64,000 bases of DNA, from positions 1 through 64,000 of the forward strand of contig JAJPGV010000037.1 in assembly GCA_021325635.1 (NCBI GenBank). Direction: 5' to 3'. The notes beneath the pieces are model-generated. The model worked only from the letters and a program-made list of their open reading frames with translations. It searched no databases and was not told the origin of the DNA. The position numbers and the translations under genes were made by a program. The DNA is from Chloroflexota bacterium. Lineage in GTDB: Bacteria; Chloroflexota; JAJPGV01. Below, one piece after another: positions 31,263-44,247 of this stretch. Each line of letters begins with the position of its first letter. The first letter of the stretch is position 1.

Positions 31263-33590
31263 ATAGCCGTCCTCACCCCCATCGACGTCGAGGAGCAGCC
31301 AGACCCTGAGCGAGCGCTGGCCGTCGCCAGCGAGGCGCTTCCAGTCACCCCGGAAGAGGTCCTCGAAGAAGCCACCGATCAGCTGCCCGATGAGCTCAGG
31401 TTACGTGGCCTGCGGAAATTCTTCCTGGGCCGCATCGACGTCAAGATCGTTGCCCCGTTCATTTTTGTCATGGTCGTGCTGGGCATTGGCGCCAGCTTCG
31501 TCGTGCTGAATCTGCTCAGCAGCTCGTTTGCTCAACGCTTCCAGAGCCAGCTATTGGATGCCGGAAAGAGCGTCAACGACGGCATCATCAAAGTCGAAAG
31601 CCAGCAGCTCGAGCTGCTGCGACTCATGAGCAACACCGAGGGCGTGGACGTGGCCCTGCAAAACGGCGATGCGCCGACACTGCAGAAGCTGCTGCTTCCG
31701 CTGCAGGCGAACTCGACCTTCAGCTTTGTCGACGTGGTGGACACCAGCGGCAAGCAGGTGCTGGCGCTGAGACCCAGCGACGATCAGTACCTGCAGGCCC
31801 TGGATCCCGACATCGGTAACTGGAACGTGACCCAGCAGAGTCTCGCCAATCAGGCGGATAACTTCGGGAACAAGTACACGGAGCTGATTAGCACCAGCTA
31901 CGGGTCGTTCGTCTACACCGGCGGGCCGGTGCTGGACCAGAACAACCAGGTTGTGGGCGCTATCCTGGTGGGCAAGCCGTTCGACGAGCTGCTGACTCAG
32001 CTCACGAAGGACGTGCTGGCGAGCGTCACTGTCTACCGTCCGGACGGCAGCCTGTTCGGCAGCTCCTTCAATCCGCAGCCGGGGGACACTCCGCTGCAGC
32101 TGGATCAGAGCACCATCTCGCAAGTCTTCTCGACCACCCCGAAAACGGTTCAGCGGCCGCTAACCATAGGCGGCACCGGGTACATGGAGCTCGTCGGCGG
32201 GCTGGTGATTCGAGACAAGGTCGCTTACGGGCTCGGCGTAGCTCTGGCCAAGAGCGACATCGACCGGGCGGCCAGCGAAAGCCGGATTCAGCTGACGATC
32301 ATGTTCATGGCCGTGACGGCCGTCGTTCTGGCCATCGGTTTGGTCCTGGCCAAGCGAATCAGCACGCCGATTGGCGTCCTGGTGCGAGCCTGCCAGATGG
32401 TCGCCCGAGGTGAGTTCGGCGAGAGGGTTGAGGTCAAGGCCAGGGATGAGACTGGCGTCCTGGCCCACACCTTCAACCAAATGATCGACGGGCTCAAAGA
32501 ACGTGACCGCATCCGCGACACTTTTGGGCGCTACATGACGCAGCAGGTGTCAGACGCCATCCTCAAGGGCGACGTCAAGCTTGGTGGTGAAACGCGAGAG
32601 CTGACGCTCTTCATGTCCGACATCCGCAGCTTCACCACACTGTCGGAATCCATGAAGCCTGAAGATCTCGTGGCCTTCCTGAACCGCTACTTCAGCGCGA
32701 TGATCGACTGCGTCATGGCCCACGACGGTGTCGTGGATAAGTTCATGGGTGACGCCATCCTGGTGGTATACGGGGCGCCGGTCCGAGATCCGGAACACCC
32801 GGTCAAGGCCGTTCTAACGGCCCTCGACATGCGGGCCAAGCTCCTGGAGTTCAACCAGCAGCTCATAGAAGAGGGCCAGAATCCGATCCGCATCGGCATT
32901 GGCGTGAACACTGGTCCAGCGGTTACGGGCAACATCGGTTCCGAGGTTCGTATGGAGTACACCGTGATCGGCGACGCGGTGAACTCCACCCAGCGCACCG
33001 AGGACCTGACGAAAGAATTCAAGACCGATATCCTGGTGAGCGACGCGACAATGGAGCGGCTCGACATCCGCTTCATCCTGGCCGCGCCGCACGCGATCAC
33101 CCTTCGCGGCCGGACGCAAAAGTCCCACATCTACCCCGTCATCGCCTACCGCGATTTGCCGGAGGAGGAGTGGAAGGGCACAAAGCCGATCATCATTGGC
33201 GGCACACCCCCCGCTCAGTCGCTCGCTGAGGCGGTGATCAAGGCGGCGGAGGCGGGCCTGCTGGGCGACGAGCCCGAGTCGACTAACCCTGCGCCCGCGC
33301 CGGCCGCGGTGACCGCCGAGGTCGCGCAACCAGCTCCCAAGCCGCGCTCGGCGTCAAACGGCCACGCAGCCACCAAGGCGGCCCGCACCAAAGTGGTTGA
33401 AGCCGCTCCACCGAGCTCCCGAGGGACGAGCAAGGCTCGTTCCAGCGCGGGAACGACCGCCACGAATGGCCAGGCATCGAAGACCGTGCGCGTCCCCGCC
33501 GACGCCCCCGAGGCCGCCCCAGCGAAGACGGACGGTAGCGCCTCCCCGACCACGTCGGGAGCCGGTCCCGCTCGGCGCAAAAAGACCTAG
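31263..33590 (+). CDS. Membrane class III adenylate cyclase with extracellular sensor and HAMP
   Basis: Order: short acidic cytoplasmic N-terminus, TM1 (VAPFIFVMVVLGIGASFVV), extracellular sensor of about 240 residues (dCache/CHASE-like), TM2 (MFMAVTAVVLAIGLVLA), HAMP (STPIGVLVRACQMVARGEF), catalytic domain with metal Asp in LFMSDIRSFTTL and KFMGDAILVVYG, and YTVIGDAVNS as in bacterial adenylate cyclases. The last 110 residues are Ala/Pro-rich and disordered. The first standard start is ATG 31470, but that would cut TM1; the frame is open from 31215 and strongly GC3-biased from 31263 (an ATA). An ATG at 31249 lies one base out of frame. It probably answers an extracellular ligand by changing cAMP. 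Confidence 0.9.
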   Translation: MAVLTPIDVEEQPDPERALAVASEALPVTPEEVLEEATDQLPDELRLRGLRKFFLGRIDVKIVAPFIFVMVVLGIGASFVVLNLLSSSFAQRFQSQLLDAGKSVNDGIIKVESQQLELLRLMSNTEGVDVALQNGDAPTLQKLLLPLQANSTFSFVDVVDTSGKQVLALRPSDDQYLQALDPDIGNWNVTQQSLANQADNFGNKYTELISTSYGSFVYTGGPVLDQNNQVVGAILVGKPFDELLTQLTKDVLASVTVYRPDGSLFGSSFNPQPGDTPLQLDQSTISQVFSTTPKTVQRPLTIGGTGYMELVGGLVIRDKVAYGLGVALAKSDIDRAASESRIQLTIMFMAVTAVVLAIGLVLAKRISTPIGVLVRACQMVARGEFGERVEVKARDETGVLAHTFNQMIDGLKERDRIRDTFGRYMTQQVSDAILKGDVKLGGETRELTLFMSDIRSFTTLSESMKPEDLVAFLNRYFSAMIDCVMAHDGVVDKFMGDAILVVYGAPVRDPEHPVKAVLTALDMRAKLLEFNQQLIEEGQNPIRIGIGVNTGPAVTGNIGSEVRMEYTVIGDAVNSTQRTEDLTKEFKTDILVSDATMERLDIRFILAAPHAITLRGRTQKSHIYPVIAYRDLPEEEWKGTKPIIIGGTPPAQSLAEAVIKAAEAGLLGDEPESTNPAPAPAAVTAEVAQPAPKPRSASNGHAATKAARTKVVEAAPPSSRGTSKARSSAGTTATNGQASKTVRVPADAPEAAPAKTDGSASPTTSGAGPARRKKT

Positions 33591-33630: not shown

Positions 33631-34734
33631 ATGATCGGCATACTGAAGGCCATCGTGGCCAAGATCGGCACGGCCGGCTGGGTTGGCTATGCGTCAACGG
33701 CAGTCGTGACGACCGCGGTCACCGGCGGCGGGATCGTCGGCCTCAGCGCGACAGGCATCATCAACGTCACCAGCGGCCTCGGCACGCACGCGGAAATCCA
33801 GGCAACCTTCAAGCCCAGCGCCTTTGGCAGCCTGGATCAGATCTACAGTTCGATTACGGCCGGTGCCTCGGCCGCCCTCACCGGCGCCGGCATCCAACTG
33901 CCGGCGATTGCCATCAGCAATAAGATCGCCGCGGTCAGCTCGAGGATCATCGCCGAGGCCGCCGCCGACAAGGCAGCGCTGCAGCGCCTGTCCGACGCCT
34001 TGAACCAAACAGGCTTCGGCAGCGGAGGAGCAACGCCAACGCGCTCGGCCGGGCCCGATCTGGCCGCCATTGCCGCGACGCAGACAGCGCTCGCCGCCGC
34101 GGGCACGGGAACTCCCAGCGGCGCTGGCTCGACCACGCCCACGGGCAGCCTTACGCCTCAGGCAACGGTGACGACAGGACCGGCTGCTACGAATACGCCA
34201 ACCCGAACGGCGACACCCACCCACACCGGGACGCCCACGCCCACCGGCACTCCTACTGAGACCAACACGCCCACGGCAACGCCAACGCCACTCATCAAGA
34301 TCAGCAACGCCGGTATATCCTTCTGTAACTTCAGCAACATGATCCCTGGCCGCTCGACGGCCAACTGTTCGCTGACCGTCACCAACATTTCCAACGAGCC
34401 GTTCAACTACACGTTGACGACGTCCTGCTCCAGCAGCTGCACCCAGCTATTCACCGACGCCACAAATGGCCTGCAGATGACCCTCAGTCGCAATGGTGGC
34501 GGCATTTACAGCGGACCCATCCAGGTCACCAATCTCAATATCACCGGTGGCTCACCGCTTGGGCTCAATGCGACGGACACGATAACCGTCACCGTGTCTT
34601 TGCCTTCCGGCCCCGCAACGCCCACCAATATCACCGGGGCGCTGACGTTCCTCACACCTCAGCCAGGCAATGCCATTCAGGGCAAGTCGCAAGGCGTGAA
34701 CTTCACCTGGACGGCCACAGGAACGCTGCCGTAG
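33631..34734 (+). CDS. Secreted surface protein with Thr/Pro stalk and Cys-containing beta domain
   Basis: A 367-residue protein I cannot assign to a family. The N-terminus has a hydrophobic segment (TAVVTTAVTGGGIVGLSATGI) that may be a signal or anchor. Residues about 45-150 are Ala-rich and helical; 150-225 form a Thr/Pro stalk (repeated TxTPT); the C-terminal 140 residues are a beta-rich domain with paired cysteines (ISFCNFSNM, ANCSLTVTNIS, CSSSC), resembling the domain seen in the camelysin-like proteins encoded downstream. It lies between the membrane cyclase and the O-antigen-ligase-like gene, and probably belongs to the surface cluster. No C-terminal anchor is visible. Confidence 0.65.
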   Translation: MIGILKAIVAKIGTAGWVGYASTAVVTTAVTGGGIVGLSATGIINVTSGLGTHAEIQATFKPSAFGSLDQIYSSITAGASAALTGAGIQLPAIAISNKIAAVSSRIIAEAAADKAALQRLSDALNQTGFGSGGATPTRSAGPDLAAIAATQTALAAAGTGTPSGAGSTTPTGSLTPQATVTTGPAATNTPTRTATPTHTGTPTPTGTPTETNTPTATPTPLIKISNAGISFCNFSNMIPGRSTANCSLTVTNISNEPFNYTLTTSCSSSCTQLFTDATNGLQMTLSRNGGGIYSGPIQVTNLNITGGSPLGLNATDTITVTVSLPSGPATPTNITGALTFLTPQPGNAIQGKSQGVNFTWTATGTLP

Positions 34735-34773
34735 GGCGTCTGCAAGTCAGATTCCTTTCTTTGCACCCACCCG

Positions 34774-37695
34774 TTGTTTGCCGTCCAGCCTGAGAGCTCC
34801 GCGATTCAGCTCCGTCGAGCGTCGACGCTTGACGACCTGTGCGATGCACTGCTGGAAGCGGGCTGGCTCAGCGCACTCGTTGTGGCGCCGCTCCTATTCA
34901 ATGTGTATGCCTTGCACACCTTCGAGAACGCGCTGCTCATACGCAGCATTGCGCTGCTCATGGCAGCGGTAGGCCTCACCAAGGTCCTAACGCATCCACG
35001 CAGGCTTCGACCGCTCTGGAGACAGCGCGCGACGCTGCTGCACACGCGAGCGCATCGAGCCTACCTAGCCGTGGCTGCAGTGGTCTTGGCCACGCTCGCT
35101 TCAACGGCGACGTCAATTCTTCCTGCCATGAGCTTCTGGGGGTCGTTCACGCGCCGGCAGGGCGCGTACACCGCCCTCGGCTACGTGGTCATCTTCGTCG
35201 CTGTCTCGACCACCCTGCGGCATCGGGAGCAGCTGGCACGCTTCTGCCAGACGGTGGTCGTCACCGGGCTGCCCATCACGATCTACGCCCTGCTGCAGCG
35301 AGCTGGGCGGGATCCGTTCCTATGGTCAGGCGGCAACGGACCGCGGCCGACCTCCACGCTGGGCAACTCCTCATTCCTGGGCGGATATCTCGTCCTGGCC
35401 CTTCCGATCACCGCCTTCTTGCTTGTCGAACGATTGCGCCAGGACGCGCCTCTCACGTTCAGGGACATCCTGAGGCGCGCCGGTGATGACCCAGGTTGCT
35501 GGCTGCTAGCGATTGCCCTCGTCCTTCAGGTCCTTACCCTGAGCTTGACCGGAGCCCGCGCCGCAATCCTTGGCGCCACTACGGCAATCGTCGTGACGGC
35601 TTTCGTCACCGCCCTGCTGCAACGAAAGCACGTGGTCGCTTGGGGCATCGGCGGCGCGGCATTGATCGCATTGGCGGGGGTATGCCTTGGAGATTTTGCT
35701 GGCCCGCGCTTCGCGTTCATCCGCCAGGCTCCGCTCATTGGTCAAGCCGCTCGAGCCCTCGACGCGTCGGACCCTACGAGCCGTACGCGGGTGCTGCTGT
35801 GGCAAGCGGCAGGCCGGCTCATCCTGCCCCACTCGGCTGTCACGGACTCCGAAGGTCACCGCGACGTCTTGAACGTGTTGCGACCCCTGCTTGGGTACGG
35901 CCCGGAGACCGAGGGCGTGCTCCTGGAGCGGTTCATGTCCCCGGAGATCCTGCATTACGAAGGAGGATCCTCCGTCCCCGACCGGGTCCACAATTTCCTG
36001 CTGGACACGGTTGCCACAACCGGCCTGCTGGGGCTGATCGCGCAGATCTGTTTTTGGACCGCCGTCCTCAGCGCGGCTATCGCCGCAGCGCGCAAGTCCG
36101 GGCACGGCGCGAACGCGCGACTCCTGGCCATATGCCTCTTGTGTGCGATAGTCGGCCACCTTGCGGAAACCATCTTCAGCTTCGAGATAACCCCTACCTC
36201 GACATACGCCTTTGCCTACGGGGGACTGGTGGTTGCCTTGCTGCTCGGGCTAGAAGCGCGCGAGCGACCAAGCTCGACTCCTTTGCCGGCGGGAACGTCC
36301 GGTAGTCGCCGCGATCTATTGGCACATGGGGCGCTGCCCGCGGTGTTGTGCTGCCTGACGCTGATCGTCCTGCTCTACGACTTCATCATCGTCCCCGGCT
36401 CGCTCTCGATTTTCGAGGTCATACAACGTTCGTTCGGAACGCTGCACCAGGGTGGACGTGGCGAGAGCTATGGCGTCGCGTTGGTGCTGGCCAGCGCACT
36501 CGCCGGCTGGAGCATTCTCGGCTCTCGTGGTCAGCGGGCGACTTCAATCGCCGCCTTCATCCCGGTGCCCATCGCCGCGGCATTCGCCGCTTGGCAGGTA
36601 CACATACTGCGCGGTCCTGGCCCCACGGCCAGCGTGGCTGACGGGGTCGTTACCCGTGCGGAGGTGATCACGCATTTGGCAGGCTGGTTATTTGGCAGCA
36701 TCCTCGCAATCGCCACCTGCATTTCCCTGGCACGAGTCAACAGGCCCATAGCTGCAAGGCGAAGCTGGAGCATGCTTGCCCTATTGGCGATTTGTGCCTG
36801 CGCGGGGAGTTTCATCTCGAACCTGCGGCCCCTGGAGGCTGAGATTGCACTCCAGATCGGGCGAGATATTGGCCGCGCCTCGCCCGGAAACCGGCCCCTT
36901 GCATTGATCAGCCTGGCGACAGCCGTTGCTCTGGACCCTGCTGAGGAAGCCACCCACCTTGCCTTGGGCGAAGCCTACCTGCCGGCACAACCGTCCCAGC
37001 TTTCGAACGCGGCGATCAACTGGCCCGACGCGATCACACACGGGCTCGCCGAGCTAGACGCGGCGAAAGCAGCTAACCCGTTCGATCCTCTGCCATTTTC
37101 CGAGCGGGCCAGAGCAGCCGAGATGAACCTCCTTCTCGGACCAGGGGCCGAAGGGCAAGAGGATTGGCGAACCGTGGCGGATCAAGCGTTCATGGCAGCG
37201 GTGGCTCTCGATCCCACGCGCCCCGAGCGTTGGAACGAATGGGCAAGGTTTGAAGCGCGTAGTGGGGGCGACTATCTCCGGGCGATGGAGCTGCTGCAGC
37301 ACTCGATTTTCCTCGATCCTGAGCTCGACAGCTCGCTTCGATTGTGGGACGAGATCGATCCGGCGCAGCGATCGCATTGGTTGATTACGACAGCAGCCTT
37401 TGAGGCGCGCACCCCGAGCCAAGAACGTGATCTTGGCCAGTGGTTCGCCAGCCAGTTAGTCCTGGGCAGCACGTTCTACGGCCTGCACGAGGACGAGCAG
37501 GCCAAGCTGGCATACCAGCAGGCGCTGCATCACATCCCGCAGAACGTCAACCCCTGGGCGGCGCACCTAGCGCTAGCCCAGGTCTACTTCCGAACAGGCG
37601 ATCGTCTGAACGCCGAGTCGGAAGTCAGCGCCGCGCGCGCAACGGCGCCGCCCTTTGCTGCCGGCTCGTTTAAAATCCTGCCAACCGCTCGCTAG
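34774..37695 (+). CDS. O-antigen ligase/polymerase-like membrane protein with TPR tail
   Basis: A 973-residue protein, TTG start. About 12-14 TM helices fill residues 30-700. The Wzy/WaaL-like core includes TLGNSSFLGGYLVLALPIT (after a short loop rich in Arg/Gly), LTLSLTGARAAILGA and a large outer loop with VPDRVHNFLLD, in which an Arg and a His are typical of this family. The last 270 residues hold TPR-like helical pairs (ALDPAEEATHLALGEAYL; AKLAYQQALHHIPQNVN). Such Wzy_C-plus-TPR proteins attach or polymerise glycans outside the cell. Its place beside secreted proteins suggests glycosylation of the matrix proteins or a capsule step; this is inference. Confidence 0.85.
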   Translation: MFAVQPESSAIQLRRASTLDDLCDALLEAGWLSALVVAPLLFNVYALHTFENALLIRSIALLMAAVGLTKVLTHPRRLRPLWRQRATLLHTRAHRAYLAVAAVVLATLASTATSILPAMSFWGSFTRRQGAYTALGYVVIFVAVSTTLRHREQLARFCQTVVVTGLPITIYALLQRAGRDPFLWSGGNGPRPTSTLGNSSFLGGYLVLALPITAFLLVERLRQDAPLTFRDILRRAGDDPGCWLLAIALVLQVLTLSLTGARAAILGATTAIVVTAFVTALLQRKHVVAWGIGGAALIALAGVCLGDFAGPRFAFIRQAPLIGQAARALDASDPTSRTRVLLWQAAGRLILPHSAVTDSEGHRDVLNVLRPLLGYGPETEGVLLERFMSPEILHYEGGSSVPDRVHNFLLDTVATTGLLGLIAQICFWTAVLSAAIAAARKSGHGANARLLAICLLCAIVGHLAETIFSFEITPTSTYAFAYGGLVVALLLGLEARERPSSTPLPAGTSGSRRDLLAHGALPAVLCCLTLIVLLYDFIIVPGSLSIFEVIQRSFGTLHQGGRGESYGVALVLASALAGWSILGSRGQRATSIAAFIPVPIAAAFAAWQVHILRGPGPTASVADGVVTRAEVITHLAGWLFGSILAIATCISLARVNRPIAARRSWSMLALLAICACAGSFISNLRPLEAEIALQIGRDIGRASPGNRPLALISLATAVALDPAEEATHLALGEAYLPAQPSQLSNAAINWPDAITHGLAELDAAKAANPFDPLPFSERARAAEMNLLLGPGAEGQEDWRTVADQAFMAAVALDPTRPERWNEWARFEARSGGDYLRAMELLQHSIFLDPELDSSLRLWDEIDPAQRSHWLITTAAFEARTPSQERDLGQWFASQLVLGSTFYGLHEDEQAKLAYQQALHHIPQNVNPWAAHLALAQVYFRTGDRLNAESEVSAARATAPPFAAGSFKILPTAR

Positions 37696-37742
37696 CTTGC
37701 CACGAGAAGCCAAGGGCATCCGTGGCCAAGTAGCACAATAAT

Positions 37743-37821
37743 CCTAGGTACTGCACTCTAGTAGACAAGCCGTGTTGCGTGTGGTTTAATGCAGAGTGCC
37801 TGCGGGGGGAAACCCTAGGTA
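37743..37821 (+). promoter_or_regulatory. Structured leader upstream of the SipW/camelysin genes
   Basis: The 151-base gap before the first camelysin-like gene holds a nested symmetric arrangement: CCTAGGTA (37743-37750), GCACTCT (37753-37759), then its complement AGAGTGC (37793-37799) and a second CCTAGGTA (37814-37821). CCTAGG is self-complementary, so the outer elements can also pair. It ends 25 bases before the ATG and could be an RNA switch, attenuator or operator pair. I could not match it to a known riboswitch. Confidence 0.4.
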
Positions 37822-37846
37822 GGTCGCGCCGCGTTTGGAGAGTGTG

Positions 37847-38854
37847 ATGAAGCTTGGGGTATTTAAAAAAGTCTGCCTGACAGTGATGGGGATCGGCGTC
37901 GTCGGCTCGCTGGTTAGCGTGGGCACGTTTGCAACGTTCACCGCAGTTACGACGAACCCCGGAAACACCTTCGCCGCGGGCACGCTGCTTATCGACAACG
38001 TCATTGGAGACACGAGTGGCGCCCTGACCGGCTTCAACTCATCGAGCGGAAGCAACATCACCCAGGCCGCCTCGAACCTTGGCACGGCAGCTACCTGCAC
38101 CGGGGTGGTCAGCAGCGCGTGCGGAACGGTGATCCAAACGTCGAAGATCGCTGGCGCCGGGATGGAATCGGGACAGTACGTCCAAGGCCAGGTGACGGTG
38201 AAGAATACTGGCACCTTGCCTGCAACCTTCCAACTGCAGCTCCAGAACATCGCCAGCACGGCGTCGAGCGCTTCTTTCTGCTCTGGCGTTGCTGGCGGCG
38301 CTTGCGCCAAGCTGGGCGACGGCATTTCCATCGCTATCGAGGACCTCAATGGTCCGGGCAACGCGAAGCAGTGCATTTACGGCAAGAACGGAACCACGAC
38401 CCTTCAGGGCGCAGCGCCCACCCAAGTAGTGAGCAGCGCTGCCGGAAACGCGACGCCGGTGGCTTGCAATGCGGCTCTCACGACGCCCACTTCCGCCGGC
38501 TTGAGCACGGCGCCTCAGACGAACGAAATCTTCGGCTCCTCCGGATCGAGCAACACCTTCTTCACGCTCGGGAGCACGACCAACACCTCGAACAACAGCA
38601 TCTACATCCCTGGCAAGCTGGCCGTGGGCAGCTGCCCCAATGGGAATAACGCAAAGGCCACCTACGCTGGCGTAACCTTCTGCCAATGGGATGCAGGTGA
38701 GACACACACCTTCACCATCACCATGGTCTTCCCCGACACGGGCACTTCCAGCTCGATAAGCCTTGGAACCAACAGTGTGACGGTTGGAACCGAGACCAAG
38801 TACGAAGGTGGCAGTGTCGGCTTCGACATGATCTGGTTCTCGGCCCAGCAATAA
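37847..38854 (+). CDS. Camelysin/TasA-like protein with SipW-type signal peptide (1)
   Basis: A 335-residue secreted protein. The ATG at 37847 has GGAG six bases before it. The N-terminus (KKVCLTVMGIGVVGSLVSV, then TFATFTAVTTNPGNTFAAG) is a SipW-type signal: a hydrophobic stretch followed by the FTAxTxN segment and the xxAGTL motif. The mature part is beta-rich with Asn/Ser/Thr and several Cys (TCTG, SACG, FCSG, FCQWD). The MxxGQYVQGQVTVKNTGTLPA segment is the typical camelysin/TasA strand. Homologues form biofilm fibres or act as surface metalloproteases; fibre formation is inferred. The cognate peptidase gene follows 52 bases later. Confidence 0.85.
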   Translation: MKLGVFKKVCLTVMGIGVVGSLVSVGTFATFTAVTTNPGNTFAAGTLLIDNVIGDTSGALTGFNSSSGSNITQAASNLGTAATCTGVVSSACGTVIQTSKIAGAGMESGQYVQGQVTVKNTGTLPATFQLQLQNIASTASSASFCSGVAGGACAKLGDGISIAIEDLNGPGNAKQCIYGKNGTTTLQGAAPTQVVSSAAGNATPVACNAALTTPTSAGLSTAPQTNEIFGSSGSSNTFFTLGSTTNTSNNSIYIPGKLAVGSCPNGNNAKATYAGVTFCQWDAGETHTFTITMVFPDTGTSSSISLGTNSVTVGTETKYEGGSVGFDMIWFSAQQ

Positions 38855-38861
38855 TGTCTGA

Positions 38862-38882
38862 CGCCCGGTTTGACCACGGGCG
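38862..38882 (+). terminator. Weak hairpin between substrate and peptidase genes
   Basis: CGCCCG and CGGGCG form a 6-bp stem with a 9-base loop, 7 bases after the camelysin-like stop. No T-run follows, so partial termination or mRNA 3'-end protection giving more substrate than peptidase is possible. Confidence 0.3.
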
Positions 38883-38906
38883 GATGAGGTAGGTGGCAGG
38901 GCAGAA

Positions 38907-39557
38907 GTGAACCGCGCCGCTTCTATTGCCGGCAATGCGCTCTTCGCCATGGCTACGGCCGGGCTTGGACTTGCCATCCTGTCGCTGACCGTTCTTCCGC
39001 CCGTACTCCACTACCAGACCTACGTCGTACTGAGCGGCTCGATGGAGCCAACGATTCATGTGGGCTCAGTCGTCGTCGCAACGGCGGCTGCTCCCGACTC
39101 GCTCAAGATTGGCGACGTCGTGACGTACGTCCGGCCTGGCGACCAGGAAAACGTCACCCACCGCATTGTCGGCATCAAGGGCACAGCCGGAAGCCGAACG
39201 TTCGTCACCAAGGGCGATGCCAGCGGCGCGCCGGACCAGGGCGAGATCCGTTACGACCGGTTAGCCGGCAAGGTCCAGCTCACCATCCCGCTCGTGGGCT
39301 ATTTCTTCAAGTTCATCGGCAGCCCCAGCATGCGTTTCCTGTTCATCGTCGTCCCAGGCCTGCTGCTCTTGGGCAGCTGGCTGTATGAAGTCTGGAAGCC
39401 AGAGCCAAAACCGAAAGCCCCCGATACCGAGACGCCAAAGGGGATGGCGCCCCCTCCCATGAAGCCGAGTTCATCCAAGCCCACGTCATCGAACTCCGTC
39501 ACCAAGAACCTCGATCTCGGTCTGTCCGATGCTGCCACGGTTCCGCTCCGACGCTAG
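38907..39557 (+). CDS. sipW: SipW-type signal peptidase I (1)
   Basis: A 216-residue membrane serine protease of the archaeal/ER-like signal peptidase group. A TM helix (about 10-32) precedes the catalytic Ser in VVLSGSMEPTI; the second catalytic residue is His in VTHRIVGI, as in SipW and eukaryotic SEC11, in place of the Lys of common LepB. A second TM helix (FLFIVVPGLLLLGSWLY) and a Pro/Lys/Ser-rich cytoplasmic tail follow. It processes special substrates such as TasA; genes for candidates flank it on both sides. Start GTG 38907. Confidence 0.9.
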   Translation: MNRAASIAGNALFAMATAGLGLAILSLTVLPPVLHYQTYVVLSGSMEPTIHVGSVVVATAAAPDSLKIGDVVTYVRPGDQENVTHRIVGIKGTAGSRTFVTKGDASGAPDQGEIRYDRLAGKVQLTIPLVGYFFKFIGSPSMRFLFIVVPGLLLLGSWLYEVWKPEPKPKAPDTETPKGMAPPPMKPSSSKPTSSNSVTKNLDLGLSDAATVPLRR

Positions 39558-39597
39558 CTCATCAACCGGACTCCTCGATACGGGTGGGGTCGGGTTG

Positions 39598-40422
39598 ATG
39601 GGACCGGCGGCGCACACGCAGCCCGCCGGTAGTTTTGCGTCCACGGGACAGCAACCACCCCAGGCGCTGGTCCAAACGCCGGAAGAGGCCCAGGCGCACG
39701 TAACGGTGAGCAGCGGCGCTTGGGGACCCTTCGTCCGCAAGCTTTCCCTCTCGATTCTCGGCATCAGCCTCATCGGAGCAGCCATCGCGGGGGGCATGAA
39801 GGGCACGCTGTCAGCCTTCACCGCGACAACAGTGAACCCATCTACCAGTTTCACGGCGGGAACGCTCACGATGACGAATACGGGCGGCAGCGGCGGCGCG
39901 GCCGGCTGCAGCAGTGGCGTGATCTCGGCCTCATGCGGGACGTTCACGTTCGACTCCGGCAAGCTGGCGGCTGACACGCAATACCCAACGTCGAACACGC
40001 CGCAGCTGACCATCACCAATTCAGGCACGCTGCCAGCCAGCATGTCCCTGCAGGTCACGAACTTTCAGTTCACCAACCTGGGCACAAACACGGCCATTCT
40101 CAATACCGCGGCCAACGTGAACGTGTCGGTAACTATGGACCCGGCGGGCAGCGCCAAGTGCCTCTACGATAACCACGGCACCTCTGGCGCCTGTCTGTCC
40201 CTTACCTCGCAGGCAGTGGGCTACAGCCCCCTGTCCACGGCGATCACGAACACGGCGGCGGCACCGATCTCCCTTCCCGGAACCGCTGCCAGCCAAAAAT
40301 GGGCAGCCTCGGAGTCCCACACCTTCCTGTTCTACGTCGAGATTCCCTCCGGCGTATGCTCCGGCACAGCCTGCGACAACCAGCAGGTCACATTCGACGT
40401 CATCTGGACCGCCATCCAATGA
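39598..40422 (+). CDS. Camelysin/TasA-like protein with SipW-type signal peptide (2)
   Basis: A 274-residue secreted protein. ATG 39598 is preferred; an in-frame ATG at 39529 lies inside the peptidase gene. A hydrophilic N-terminal region of 45 residues precedes the signal helix (LSLSILGISLIGAAIAGG), then AFTATTVNPSTSFTAGTL, the same FTAxTxN and AGTL pattern as the first substrate. The mature domain is beta-rich with LTITNSGTLPASMSLQV and paired Cys near KCLYDNHG and GACLSL. The long pre-signal region is unusual. It overlaps the next gene (ATGA), so it is coupled to the second peptidase. Confidence 0.85.
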   Translation: MGPAAHTQPAGSFASTGQQPPQALVQTPEEAQAHVTVSSGAWGPFVRKLSLSILGISLIGAAIAGGMKGTLSAFTATTVNPSTSFTAGTLTMTNTGGSGGAAGCSSGVISASCGTFTFDSGKLAADTQYPTSNTPQLTITNSGTLPASMSLQVTNFQFTNLGTNTAILNTAANVNVSVTMDPAGSAKCLYDNHGTSGACLSLTSQAVGYSPLSTAITNTAAAPISLPGTAASQKWAASESHTFLFYVEIPSGVCSGTACDNQQVTFDVIWTAIQ

Positions 40423-41153
40423 GCGCCGCGATCTTCAGCCGCGCTCGCCTCGCACCGGCTTTACGTTGGATGCCCGGCATCCCGGGTACCCGCGCCATCA
40501 CACTTCGGCGTGCGCTGCTGGGGCTATCGGTGCTGATCGGATCGCTGCTGGCGCTGATGTTCCTTGCCCTCGCCATTCTTCCCCGCACCGGCGCTTACGC
40601 CACCTACCTGGTTCTGAGCGACAGCATGCAGCCGGCCATTCCCTCAGGCTCGGTCGTCATCGTTCGCCCCGCCGACCCGGAGACGCTGAAGGTCGGCGAC
40701 GTCATCAGCTACACGTCGAATATCGCTCCCTACCCCACGCTGACGCATCGCATCGTGTCTGTCACCCGCGGTGACGACGGCAAGATTGCGTTCAAGACCA
40801 AGGGCGACTTCAACCTGGTCGAGGACAGCTGGGAAGTGCACTACGCCAATCAGGCCGGCCTCGTGGCCTTCTCGGTTCCGATGTTGGGATACGTGCTGGC
40901 CACCTCTTCGACCACGGCCGCGCGTGTCTTGCTCGGCGTCTTGCTCGCGGGGCTGCTCGCGCTCTTCTGGCTGAAGCTGGTGTGGGCCAAGCCCAATCGC
41001 CGAGCGGCCGTCATGCGCGCAGTCCCCGTGCTGCGACAGTTTGAGGCTCGGCGTGGCCCCTACGCCGACCGAGCCTTTTCGGCACTGCGCCTGGCCATCC
41101 TCGGCTGGCTGGCCATCGAGCTGCTATCTCGCGCACGACGGCGGGATCGCTGA
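40419..41153 (+). CDS. SipW-type signal peptidase I (2)
   Basis: A 244-residue paralogue of the first peptidase. TM1 lies at about residues 30-55, catalytic Ser in VLSDSMQPAIPSG, His in LTHRIVSV, and a second TM segment (ARVLLGVLLAGLLALFW). It differs from the first in SDSMQP for SGSMEP and has an additional C-terminal hydrophobic helix (LRLAILGWLAIELL) before a basic end. The start overlaps the second substrate; its stop overlaps the next gene (TGATG). Two peptidases in one locus suggest different substrate preferences. Confidence 0.9.
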   Translation: MSAAIFSRARLAPALRWMPGIPGTRAITLRRALLGLSVLIGSLLALMFLALAILPRTGAYATYLVLSDSMQPAIPSGSVVIVRPADPETLKVGDVISYTSNIAPYPTLTHRIVSVTRGDDGKIAFKTKGDFNLVEDSWEVHYANQAGLVAFSVPMLGYVLATSSTTAARVLLGVLLAGLLALFWLKLVWAKPNRRAAVMRAVPVLRQFEARRGPYADRAFSALRLAILGWLAIELLSRARRRDR

Positions 41154-44149
41154 TGCTGCGCTATCTCGGAGCCTTCGGCCTCACCGCGGCGCTGGCCAGC
41201 ATCTGGCTCGGATCCATGCTCGGCGCCACCGGCACGACGTTCGGATCGTTCACGGCGGTCACCACCAACACCGGCAGCTTCATCAGCGACGCTCCGCTGC
41301 CGGCGCCGGCGGTGACTTCCACGACGCCGTCCAACACGGCCCGAGGCGTTCCGAAAGACACGCTCATCGTCGTGACCTTCAGCGAATCGATGGACCAGGG
41401 CGCTACGGGCAAGGCTGTTCAGGTCGCCCAGGTAAGCGGGGGCAGCTGTTCGCCCACCACCCCCTGTCCGGTCGCCGGGACCGTCACCTGGCCCATGCCG
41501 AGCATGCTCCGGTTCACGCCGGCCAATCCCCTCGCCATCCCCTTCGTGGCCTACCAGATCAGCGTGAGCACCGGAGCCGTCGCCTCGTCCGGCAACGGCT
41601 CCATCTCGCTGGCCAAGGCCTTCACGGCTACCTTCACCACCGACGACGGGACGTCCGCGCTGCCGCCACCTACCATAGTCCTGTCGGCGCCAAACGGGAT
41701 AGCTCAGCCGAAAACCTCGCTCCAGCTCACCTTCAGCGAGCAGATGGACCCCGCCAGCGCACAAGCAGCCTTCACGCTGCAGCAAACCAGCGGCAGCCGC
41801 GGAGGCGCGGACTGCACGCTGATCGATCCCTGCGGCATTCCTGTCGCCTCCAGCGGCTTCTCCTGGGGCGGGGAGGCGGGCACGATCCTGACCTATGCGC
41901 CCACGCCCGATTTGGCGCCGGCCAGCTACACGCTCACTGAGCAGACCACTGCGAAGAGCCTGGCCGGGGTGGCGCTGGACCCCGGCGGCCGGCCACCGAC
42001 CAACGTCCTGCGCTTCGCTGTCGCCGGCGCCCCGCTTGGCCCGCCGAATCCTCCGGTGATCACCGATCCCACCGCCCAGACGTGGACGCCACAGCCGACC
42101 TTCGTCATCAGCGGCACGACCAACCAGCCCAATCTGCTCATCCAGGTCATCGACGAAGCGGATCACGGCGTGGCCAAGCTGCAGCTCGACGGCGGCCGCA
42201 CCAACTTCTCCATCACGGTGCCCTTGGCCAGCGGAACGAATCACTACACCGTCGTCGCCGCGAACGGCTTCTACCACAGCGCCAACAATCCCGTAGTCAC
42301 CATCAATCGCAACGACATCACCTCAACGCTCGACAAGGTGACCGTCGTGCCGGACGTGGACGAAATCGAGATCCGCGCACCCTACTTCGGCGACATCGAC
42401 AACAACAGTTACGCGGTGTTCACCTGCGTCGGGACACCAGCCTGCCAGGGTTCGCCCACCAGCAACCAGGCCGGCGCCAATGGCCAGTTCTCCTACACCT
42501 TCACCGGGCTCAAAGTGGCCACCAGTTACACGGTCACGCTGGACGTCTACGACCCTGACAAGGTGAGCTGCGTCGCGCCCTGGTCGCAGATATCGCCAAT
42601 CCATTGCGCGCAAACGACAACCGTCACGACCACCCAGGCCACCCCTTCGGGCGGCAGCATCAGCCAGCTCACCGTCGTCCCCAACGACGGCACCGGCTCG
42701 CATTACACCGGGCTCATCGCCCCGGCGGCCGACCAGAAGCAGGGCTTCAAGGTGCGCTACGACTGTGGGTCCGACTGCACCACCGCCAGCTCGGTCAAGC
42801 TCGCAATCGACGACAGCGCCGGCAAGCGAGTAAACCTCGTATGCAGCCAGCCGGCCGCTCCAAACGGAGCTCACATCGCCACGGCGGCAGTGCTCTGGGA
42901 TGGCAAGGACAAGACCGGGGCCTTCGTCCCTGAAGGGTCCTACAGCTATGCCTTGAAGGTGTACGACGACGGCCAGTGCGGCGCCACGGTCGGCGCGCAC
43001 TTCGTGGCGAGCCACACAGGCGATTCCATCCACGTCAGCAACGCCAACGCCGTGCAGCTCGGCTCCAACCCCACAACCATCGGGGCAGGCACGAGCGCCC
43101 AGATCAATGCCAAAGTCCTGAACAGCTCGGGTGTCAGCGTGGCGGATGGCGACAAGACGCTGGATCAAGCCACGGGGGCCGGCGTCACGCTGACGGCAGT
43201 CGGCAGCATCACCAACTCTGGCCTGGGCTTCACTGGCGGCACGGTCGTGAACGGCATCCCGCAAATCACCTCCTACGTAGGCGAGGCCGGACAGGGCTGC
43301 TCACCAACCACAGGTGCAGGGCAGGCATGTGCGCAGATCAACGTCGCCAGCACGCTGACTCTGGCCCAGACCATCACCATCACGGCCACAACCACCGGCC
43401 GCGGAGGGAAGGCCGTCGCGATCCAGTACGACCTGATCGATCCGCCCCTTCCACCCACGAACGTGACCCTCACGCCTGGCAGCATCAACGTCGGCTGGAC
43501 GGCCTCGGCCACGCCGAACGTGACCGGCTACAAGATCCTGCTGGGCAAAGCTTCCGGCCAGTACGACCGCACTATCGACGCCGGTAACGCCACCAGCTAC
43601 CACATCGCCGACGTCGATCCCGGCACGATGTACTACGTCACGGTGCAGTCCTACACCGGCGACGGCCTCGCCAGCGCGGTCAACGTCTCGGACGAGCAAT
43701 CAATGGTTGCCGCCACCCCCACAGCGACCACTTCCACACCCACCTCAACCCCAACGCCTACCCGAACGCCGACGCCCACGCCCACCAGCTGCGCGACGAC
43801 AACGGCCACACCGACCGATACCGCGACGCCTGGGGCATCTTCCACAGCGACTCCGTGCACGACCGGTACAACCACGCCGACCGCCACCACTACCCCCACC
43901 GCGACGACTTCCGCCACGGCTACGGCGACAGTCACACCAACCCCAACTGTCAGCGGGACAGCGGTCTCTTCGCCAACGGTGACGTCAACGCCCGCCTCGG
44001 CAACGACCACATCCACCACCGTGCCCACATCCACGGCCGCTGCAAGCGCCACCGCCGCACCGACGAGCACCGCGACTCAAGCCGCTACGCCAACCAGCAC
44101 GACGCAGCCAACTGCTACACGAACCCCTACCCCGACGCCCACCCACTAG
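41153..44149 (+). CDS. Large secreted multidomain protein with SipW-type signal
   Basis: 998 residues. The N-terminal signal helix (LGAFGLTAALASIWLGSML) is followed by SFTAVTTNTGSFI, the FTAxTxN motif shared with both small substrates. Domains in order: two Ig-like Big_5 domains (about 50-165, VPKDTLIVVTFSESMDQ; 170-285, TSLQLTFSEQMDP), beta domains to about 480, a FlgD-like Ig segment (VLWDGKDKTGAFVPEGSYSY, about 580-620), further beta strands, a fibronectin type III domain (about 765-855, ending MYYVTVQSY) and a Thr/Pro/Ser/Ala stalk of about 140 residues. No LPxTG motif or C-terminal TM helix is present, so it is probably secreted or bound through the stalk. It ends the coupled run. Confidence 0.85.
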   Translation: MLRYLGAFGLTAALASIWLGSMLGATGTTFGSFTAVTTNTGSFISDAPLPAPAVTSTTPSNTARGVPKDTLIVVTFSESMDQGATGKAVQVAQVSGGSCSPTTPCPVAGTVTWPMPSMLRFTPANPLAIPFVAYQISVSTGAVASSGNGSISLAKAFTATFTTDDGTSALPPPTIVLSAPNGIAQPKTSLQLTFSEQMDPASAQAAFTLQQTSGSRGGADCTLIDPCGIPVASSGFSWGGEAGTILTYAPTPDLAPASYTLTEQTTAKSLAGVALDPGGRPPTNVLRFAVAGAPLGPPNPPVITDPTAQTWTPQPTFVISGTTNQPNLLIQVIDEADHGVAKLQLDGGRTNFSITVPLASGTNHYTVVAANGFYHSANNPVVTINRNDITSTLDKVTVVPDVDEIEIRAPYFGDIDNNSYAVFTCVGTPACQGSPTSNQAGANGQFSYTFTGLKVATSYTVTLDVYDPDKVSCVAPWSQISPIHCAQTTTVTTTQATPSGGSISQLTVVPNDGTGSHYTGLIAPAADQKQGFKVRYDCGSDCTTASSVKLAIDDSAGKRVNLVCSQPAAPNGAHIATAAVLWDGKDKTGAFVPEGSYSYALKVYDDGQCGATVGAHFVASHTGDSIHVSNANAVQLGSNPTTIGAGTSAQINAKVLNSSGVSVADGDKTLDQATGAGVTLTAVGSITNSGLGFTGGTVVNGIPQITSYVGEAGQGCSPTTGAGQACAQINVASTLTLAQTITITATTTGRGGKAVAIQYDLIDPPLPPTNVTLTPGSINVGWTASATPNVTGYKILLGKASGQYDRTIDAGNATSYHIADVDPGTMYYVTVQSYTGDGLASAVNVSDEQSMVAATPTATTSTPTSTPTPTRTPTPTPTSCATTTATPTDTATPGASSTATPCTTGTTTPTATTTPTATTSATATATVTPTPTVSGTAVSSPTVTSTPASATTTSTTVPTSTAAASATAAPTSTATQAATPTSTTQPTATRTPTPTPTH

Positions 44150-44174
44150 CCGACCAGGCTGATTTGGGGAGTTG

Positions 44175-44247
44175 TGCCCCCGACGGAATTCGAATCCGTG
44201 TCGCGGCCTTGAAAGGGCCGTGTCCTAGGCCTCTAGACGACGGGGGC
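44175..44247 (-). tRNA. tRNA-Glu (UUC)
   Basis: 73 nt on the minus strand. The 5' GCCCCCG pairs with 3' CGGGGGC plus discriminator A at 44175. The anticodon loop CTTTCAA gives anticodon TTC (Glu), and the T-arm has GGATTCGAATTCC. CCA is not encoded. It lies 25 bases past the stop of the large secreted-protein gene, on the opposite strand. Confidence 0.95.

Follow-up and report, generated by a model that had tools for sequence, protein, structure and literature searches.

Do two signal peptidases of the SipW type, the proteins that they may process and the genes ahead of them form one surface-structure locus in a Chloroflexota bacterium, and if so, what might it build? The question is raised by positions 33631-44149 of a 64,000-nucleotide stretch of contig JAJPGV010000037.1 (hereafter the window, meaning the whole stretch), where an original prediction, made from the letters alone, had placed a self-contained SipW/camelysin-type matrix locus. 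All seven open frames of that prediction were found, on the + strand and in the predicted order: a stalk/anchor protein, a Wzy_C/tetratricopeptide repeat (TPR) ligase, TasA-like substrate 1, SipW 1, TasA-like substrate 2, SipW 2 and a 998-residue giant partner. A diverged copy of most of this unit lies on another contig of the same genome, C56. On balance, we consider it probable that the locus specifies an extracellular fibre or coat of the TasA type, processed by SipW and of fixed polarity. Cleavage and polymerisation, the polarity and anchoring of the product, its glycosylation and any biofilm role are predictions drawn from sequence.

SipW-type peptidases and TasA-like candidate substrates

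Both peptidases pass the cut-off of TIGR02228 (51.85 bits), with SipW 1 (38907-39557, + strand; 216 residues, Ser45 and His85) at 102.8 bits and SipW 2 (40419-41153, + strand) at 84.4 bits; seven SipW genes in the genome do so, namely these two, four on C56 and one on contig C20. For SipW 2 the likely true start is 40419, at an ATGA overlap, the start at 40299 in the open-reading-frame list being too early. The motif [S/T]-x-SM-x-P, followed 41-42 residues on by T-H-R, is kept in all seven copies, and both window peptidases are predicted to use a Ser nucleophile with His, not Lys, as general base, as in SipW/SEC11. A profile of the SipW alignment finds its best solved relatives among the SEC11 subunits of the eukaryotic signal peptidase complex (SEC11C, E = 3.5e-13). 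The cut-off of the Bacillus SipW equivalog NF046067 (190 bits) is reached by neither (95.9 and 70.1 bits), and such scores place the window peptidases in the same superfamily as that equivalog but outside it. In the SipW tree, SipW 2, C56 SipW C and the C20 protein form a group (97/96), with SipW 1 outside it and nearest, without support, to C56 SipW A, B and D. Each copy of the unit apparently holds both the SipW 1 and the SipW 2 type, and the two types may predate the duplication. The C20 protein (L010:9302-10423) has a long N-terminal extension and adjoins rpoA-like and argS-like genes, with no TasA-like neighbour; SipW proteins of two other genomes (L105:9969-10718 and L109:9440-10306) carry a C-terminal extension that is TPR-like by eye.

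Substrate 1 (37847-38854, + strand; likely true start the ATG at 37847, with GGAG just 5') carries a SipW-type signal and probably matures at FTAVTTNPGNTF, whose codon lies at 37937, while in substrate 2 (39529-40422, + strand) a long N-terminal extension precedes the SipW-type signal and the mature protein probably begins with FTATTVNPSTSF (39817); both stretches directly follow the predicted signal. The model for SipW-dependent signals, TIGR04088, recognises substrate 1 at 20.2 bits (cut-off 19) and is reached by neither substrate 2 nor the giant, both of which stood above no cut-off in the NCBIfam scan. Profiles link both substrates to relatives, which are drawn from the same phylum only, none of them close (400 phylum genomes searched). 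A profile of 30 TasA-like proteins from other genomes only, here the relatives' profile, scored substrate 1 at 43.1 bits and substrate 2 at 53.1 bits, with shuffled sequences at 9 or below, and substrate 2 was recovered in the own-genome search at E = 8.7e-37. Profile-profile comparison aligned six own-genome subunits with the relatives' profile over the full length, including the signal (99.5% probability, E = 8e-23), and the relatives' profile in turn matched TasA in the PDB (fibre 8AUR, E = 3.4e-12; 5OF1, E = 6e-12). By this two-step, transitive profile homology, we assign the substrates to the TasA/camelysin superfamily. The SipW/camelysin identification of the original prediction is thereby borne out for both peptidases and substrates, the latter being related to camelysin/TasA at profile level.

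The sequence after the signal resembles that of TasA, in which the N-terminal strand enters the next subunit and F29, I32 and F39 contact neighbours (PMC9674648). These residues correspond to F, V and F in substrate 1, with an additional residue ahead of the final F, and subunits from distant genomes also keep the donor stretch behind the signal. Within the own genome, TasA-like domains were found at the window locus and the C56 locus only. The Pfam family name Peptidase_M73 (PF12389) suggests another role, in which the substrates would be camelysin-like metalloproteases encoded with their processing enzymes and not structural proteins, and 24 of the 36 members of our TasA-like alignment match that family at E<=0.01. 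The best solved matches, however, are structural fibre TasA, and duplicated multi-subunit loci together with a stalk-borne TasA-like domain suit structure better than catalysis, so that we regard a proteolytic function as very improbable.

Layout of the unit and its duplicate

The C56 copy (L009, 1-12000) comprises a stalk (40% identical to the window stalk), a Wzy_C/TPR ligase, four TasA-like genes and four SipW genes, after which the contig ends. Because a diverged copy is present in the same genome, the arrangement is not due to chance, and because the duplicate keeps the stalk and ligase ahead of the substrates and peptidases, both belong to the unit. The original prediction had correctly seen these two genes ahead of the locus, but its treatment of them as mere neighbours does not survive this comparison. 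Genes outside the two units differ. In the window, a dCache-HAMP adenylate cyclase (31470-33590) ends 40 bp 5' of the stalk gene; we considered it as a member of the unit and rejected it, since an unrelated M24-type peptidase takes that place at the C56 copy.

The last four junctions, which had been called short or overlapping, measure a gap of 52 bp (substrate 1 to SipW 1) and overlaps of 29 bp (SipW 1/substrate 2), 4 bp (substrate 2/SipW 2, ATGA) and 1 bp (SipW 2/giant), which suggests that substrate 1 to the giant are transcribed as one unit. A putative sigma-70 promoter, TAGACA-17-TTTAAT (37762-37790, + strand), was spotted by eye 5' of substrate 1 and agrees with consensus at 10 of 12 positions; a promoter scan with a stricter rule (A required at -10 position 2) did not report it, and an Rfam search of 37.6-38.95 kb gave no match. 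Downstream, the unit is bounded by a tRNA-Glu gene (44174-44247, - strand), which lies outside it.

The ligase (34774-37695, + strand; 973 residues) is an O-antigen ligase-like protein with multiple transmembrane segments and C-terminal TPRs. Its PF04932 score is 30.7 bits against a cut-off of 31.7 (C56 copy, 24.9), and its TPR part matches both Pfam TPR families and TPR structures. It most likely would move a lipid-linked glycan onto the Ser/Thr/Pro-rich stalk or tail. It could also be a general surface glycan polymerase or ligase unrelated to any fibre, a view compatible with our interpretation of the other parts: homologues in other genomes stand alongside Glycos_transf_4 (WecA/MraY type) and sugar-nucleotide genes and never beside SipW, and two further Wzy_C/TPR paralogues occur in the own genome (L183:6913-9912 on C52 and L184:870-3617 on C8), the former in a glycan setting with a Glycos_transf_4 gene nearby. 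Yet in both copies the ligase follows the stalk and precedes the substrates, with DR-x-HN-x2-LD kept in the C56 paralogue, while the outer genes are different, and it has thus stayed in the unit as the two ligases diverged to 33% identity. We therefore find a purely general role rather doubtful.

Stalk, giant and a candidate polar fibre

The stalk protein (33631-34734, + strand; 367 residues) has a hydrophobic segment at about residues 26-44, a Pro/Thr-rich (P/T-rich) stalk and a TasA-like domain at about 222-365, which scored 41.9 bits against the relatives' profile (shuffles at most 9.1). A profile of this protein and its C56 paralogue matched the relatives' profile with 98.2% probability (E = 3e-14) over columns 83-217 only, so the TasA-like domain is present without the signal/donor stretch. 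Stalk domains of C56 and of four loci in other genomes (L110, L094, L095 and L103) match the TasA-like model from position 68-75, past signal and donor, and that of L109 from position 53; the window stalk's single alignment begins earlier, but through P/T-rich sequence. A 1124-residue surface-type protein elsewhere in the genome (L200:4644-8018, contig C23) has three similar domains with long P/T-rich rods between them.

The giant (41153-44149, + strand) shows the converse combination. Its hydrophobic segment is followed by FTAVTTNTGSF, of which the seven residues FTAVTTN are identical to substrate 1 in the same place, and then by two Big_5 stretches, a FlgD_ig-like stretch (Pfam match below threshold), fn3 and a P/T-rich tail; no TasA-like domain was matched, even with filters off. 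We assign it a donor-like stretch because of this identity and because of the giants of other genomes, whose signal/donor stretches score 9-23 bits.

Across the phylum, SipW was found in 75 of the 400 genomes and TasA-like domains in 42, of which 39 also have SipW (hypergeometric p = 1e-29, a value overstated since the genomes are related); outside the own genome, 43 of 55 TasA-like matches have a SipW gene no more than 7 kb away. For instance, one locus (L109, G064) has a stalk, two TasA-like genes, SipW and a 1237-residue giant, another (L105, G046) two TasA-like genes, SipW and a 1314-residue giant, and a third (L110, G368) a stalk, a TasA-like gene and SipW. In L094-L097, a 961-985-residue giant and SipW are followed by a 902-954-residue protein with an N-terminal transmembrane segment, a FecR domain, a P/T-rich stalk and a C-terminal TasA-like domain; FecR holds the same place in the L103 anchor (Pfam matches in L095 and L103). 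A Dehalococcoidia metagenome-assembled genome (L113) combines a TasA-like gene, a stalk-like protein, two SipW genes and a 441-residue protein. Among the relatives with a name it is the best, and it would suggest a Chloroflexota affiliation for an assembly in which no 16S sequence was found. Judged from the gene neighbourhoods examined, a giant with a P/T-rich tail adjoins SipW in L105, L109, L100 and L094-L097, with Big_5 and/or fn3 in L105, L109 and L100 (Pfam). The module of subunit, SipW, stalk and giant is therefore kept in relatives, as a check of gene order proposed with the original prediction had sought, and the full arrangement is only partly conserved. Two TasA-like proteins of a further genome (L098:5662-7168, G395) bear zinc-ribbon-like CxxC...CxxC segments before the signal helix, which is odd for a secreted protein.

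These domain combinations suggest how the parts might fit together. The two endoplasmic reticulum/archaeal-type (Ser-His) peptidases would cut the long helical signals of both subunits and the giant, freeing an N-terminal strand of the form F-T-A-V/T-T-...-F through which the subunits would polymerise by donor-strand exchange, as TasA does. The stalk, a membrane-anchored P/T-rich rod with a TasA-like domain but no free donor strand, could accept the strand of the first subunit and hold the fibre to the cell, and the giant, which has a donor-like stretch and lacks a TasA-like acceptor domain, could close the distal end, serving as an adhesin-like tip of several domains. The roles of base, shaft and tip would follow from which domains each protein has. 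In this fullest form, with an acceptor-only stalk, donor-and-acceptor subunits and a donor-only giant, with the SipW 1 and SipW 2 types perhaps processing different parts and a dedicated ligase perhaps glycosylating them, the proposal is a tentative one.

The same genes could also encode a SipW-processed TasA-like coat or secreted set without donor-strand fibres, whose subunits would be monomeric or form a sheet and whose giant would be an independent adhesin. The fibre is a prediction from genes, the subunits are of unequal length (339 vs 297 residues) and differ in their insertions, and SipW in relatives also adjoins non-TasA proteins with SipW-type signals (the 441-residue protein of L113 and those of 961-985 residues). 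Such an arrangement nevertheless appears unlikely to us, given that subunits from distant genomes keep the donor stretch directly behind the signal and that the solved relative, TasA, polymerises via donor strands.

Several results count against a polar TasA-type fibre. Within the own genome, the C56 copy runs into the end of its contig, a search of the assembly revealed no second giant (the only other match being to the low-complexity tail), and the ligase adjoins SipW here and in no relative examined. The giant's signal/donor stretch scores 9.5 bits, inside the range of shuffled sequences (maximum 11.0). PF12389 is passed by neither substrate (substrate 1 at 15.9 vs 22.5 bits, substrate 2 with no match), and the own-genome profile alone matches no TasA in the PDB, hence the transitive nature of the homology. 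AlphaFold models for substrate 2 in its mature form and for the stalk domain, from four-row alignments, were poor (pLDDT 50 and 44); the former is all-beta, from a shallow alignment. Foldseek gave no credible match, only viral jelly rolls at a TM-score of about 0.3 that were not used.

Comparison with known systems

Much is known about the TasA fibres of Bacillus, less about what anchors and caps fibres of this kind. In the unit described here, candidates for the base, the shaft, the tip, the processing enzymes and the modifying step stand together in an operon-like block. The unit's natural duplicate and distant relatives allow comparison, and the question of anchoring and capping becomes testable. 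No paper pairing 'camelysin' with 'Chloroflexota' was found in the literature searched. We know of no stalk, giant and ligase arrangement for archaeal bundling pili or threads. These filaments (AbpX pili and thread filaments, PMC9715654) resemble the proposed structure in being TasA-like or donor-strand fibres; AbpX was weakly matched by profile in the PDB, and glycosylation of the threads has been reported.

In Bacillus subtilis, the tapA-sipW-tasA operon likewise sets a SipW-type peptidase beside TasA-superfamily subunits whose signal and donor strand follow the same pattern, and TasA forms a donor-strand fibre (PMC9674648, PMC10151520) to which TapA gives the first strand (PMC10151520), an N-terminal donation like that proposed for the giant. 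General Pfam/NCBIfam scans returned no TapA-named family, no search aimed at TapA having been made. Unlike the B. subtilis operon, the unit here has two peptidases, two subunits, a membrane stalk with a TasA-like domain, an Ig/fn3 giant, a Wzy_C/TPR ligase and a duplication. The Bacillus cereus sipW-calY1-bc_1280-calY2 operon (PMC10151520; see also PMC4292775) is similar in joining two camelysin-type subunits and a third protein to SipW, but has a single SipW and, as described, no stalk, ligase or giant. Clostridium perfringens sipW-bsaABCRSD, whose BsaA forms extremely stable extracellular polymers (PMC7395162), also unites SipW with several secreted proteins, but with one SipW and two-component regulators in the operon and no stalk, ligase or giant described. 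The original prediction had thought a two-peptidase, three-substrate unit with a large partner unfamiliar; the large partner is confirmed, but several SipW genes also occur together at C56, in the Dehalococcoidia genome and in G380, and multi-substrate loci are those of B. cereus and C. perfringens. Set against these known loci, what is new here is the membrane stalk with a TasA-like domain, the candidate donor-only giant, the several peptidases per locus, the ligase and the duplication of most of the unit.

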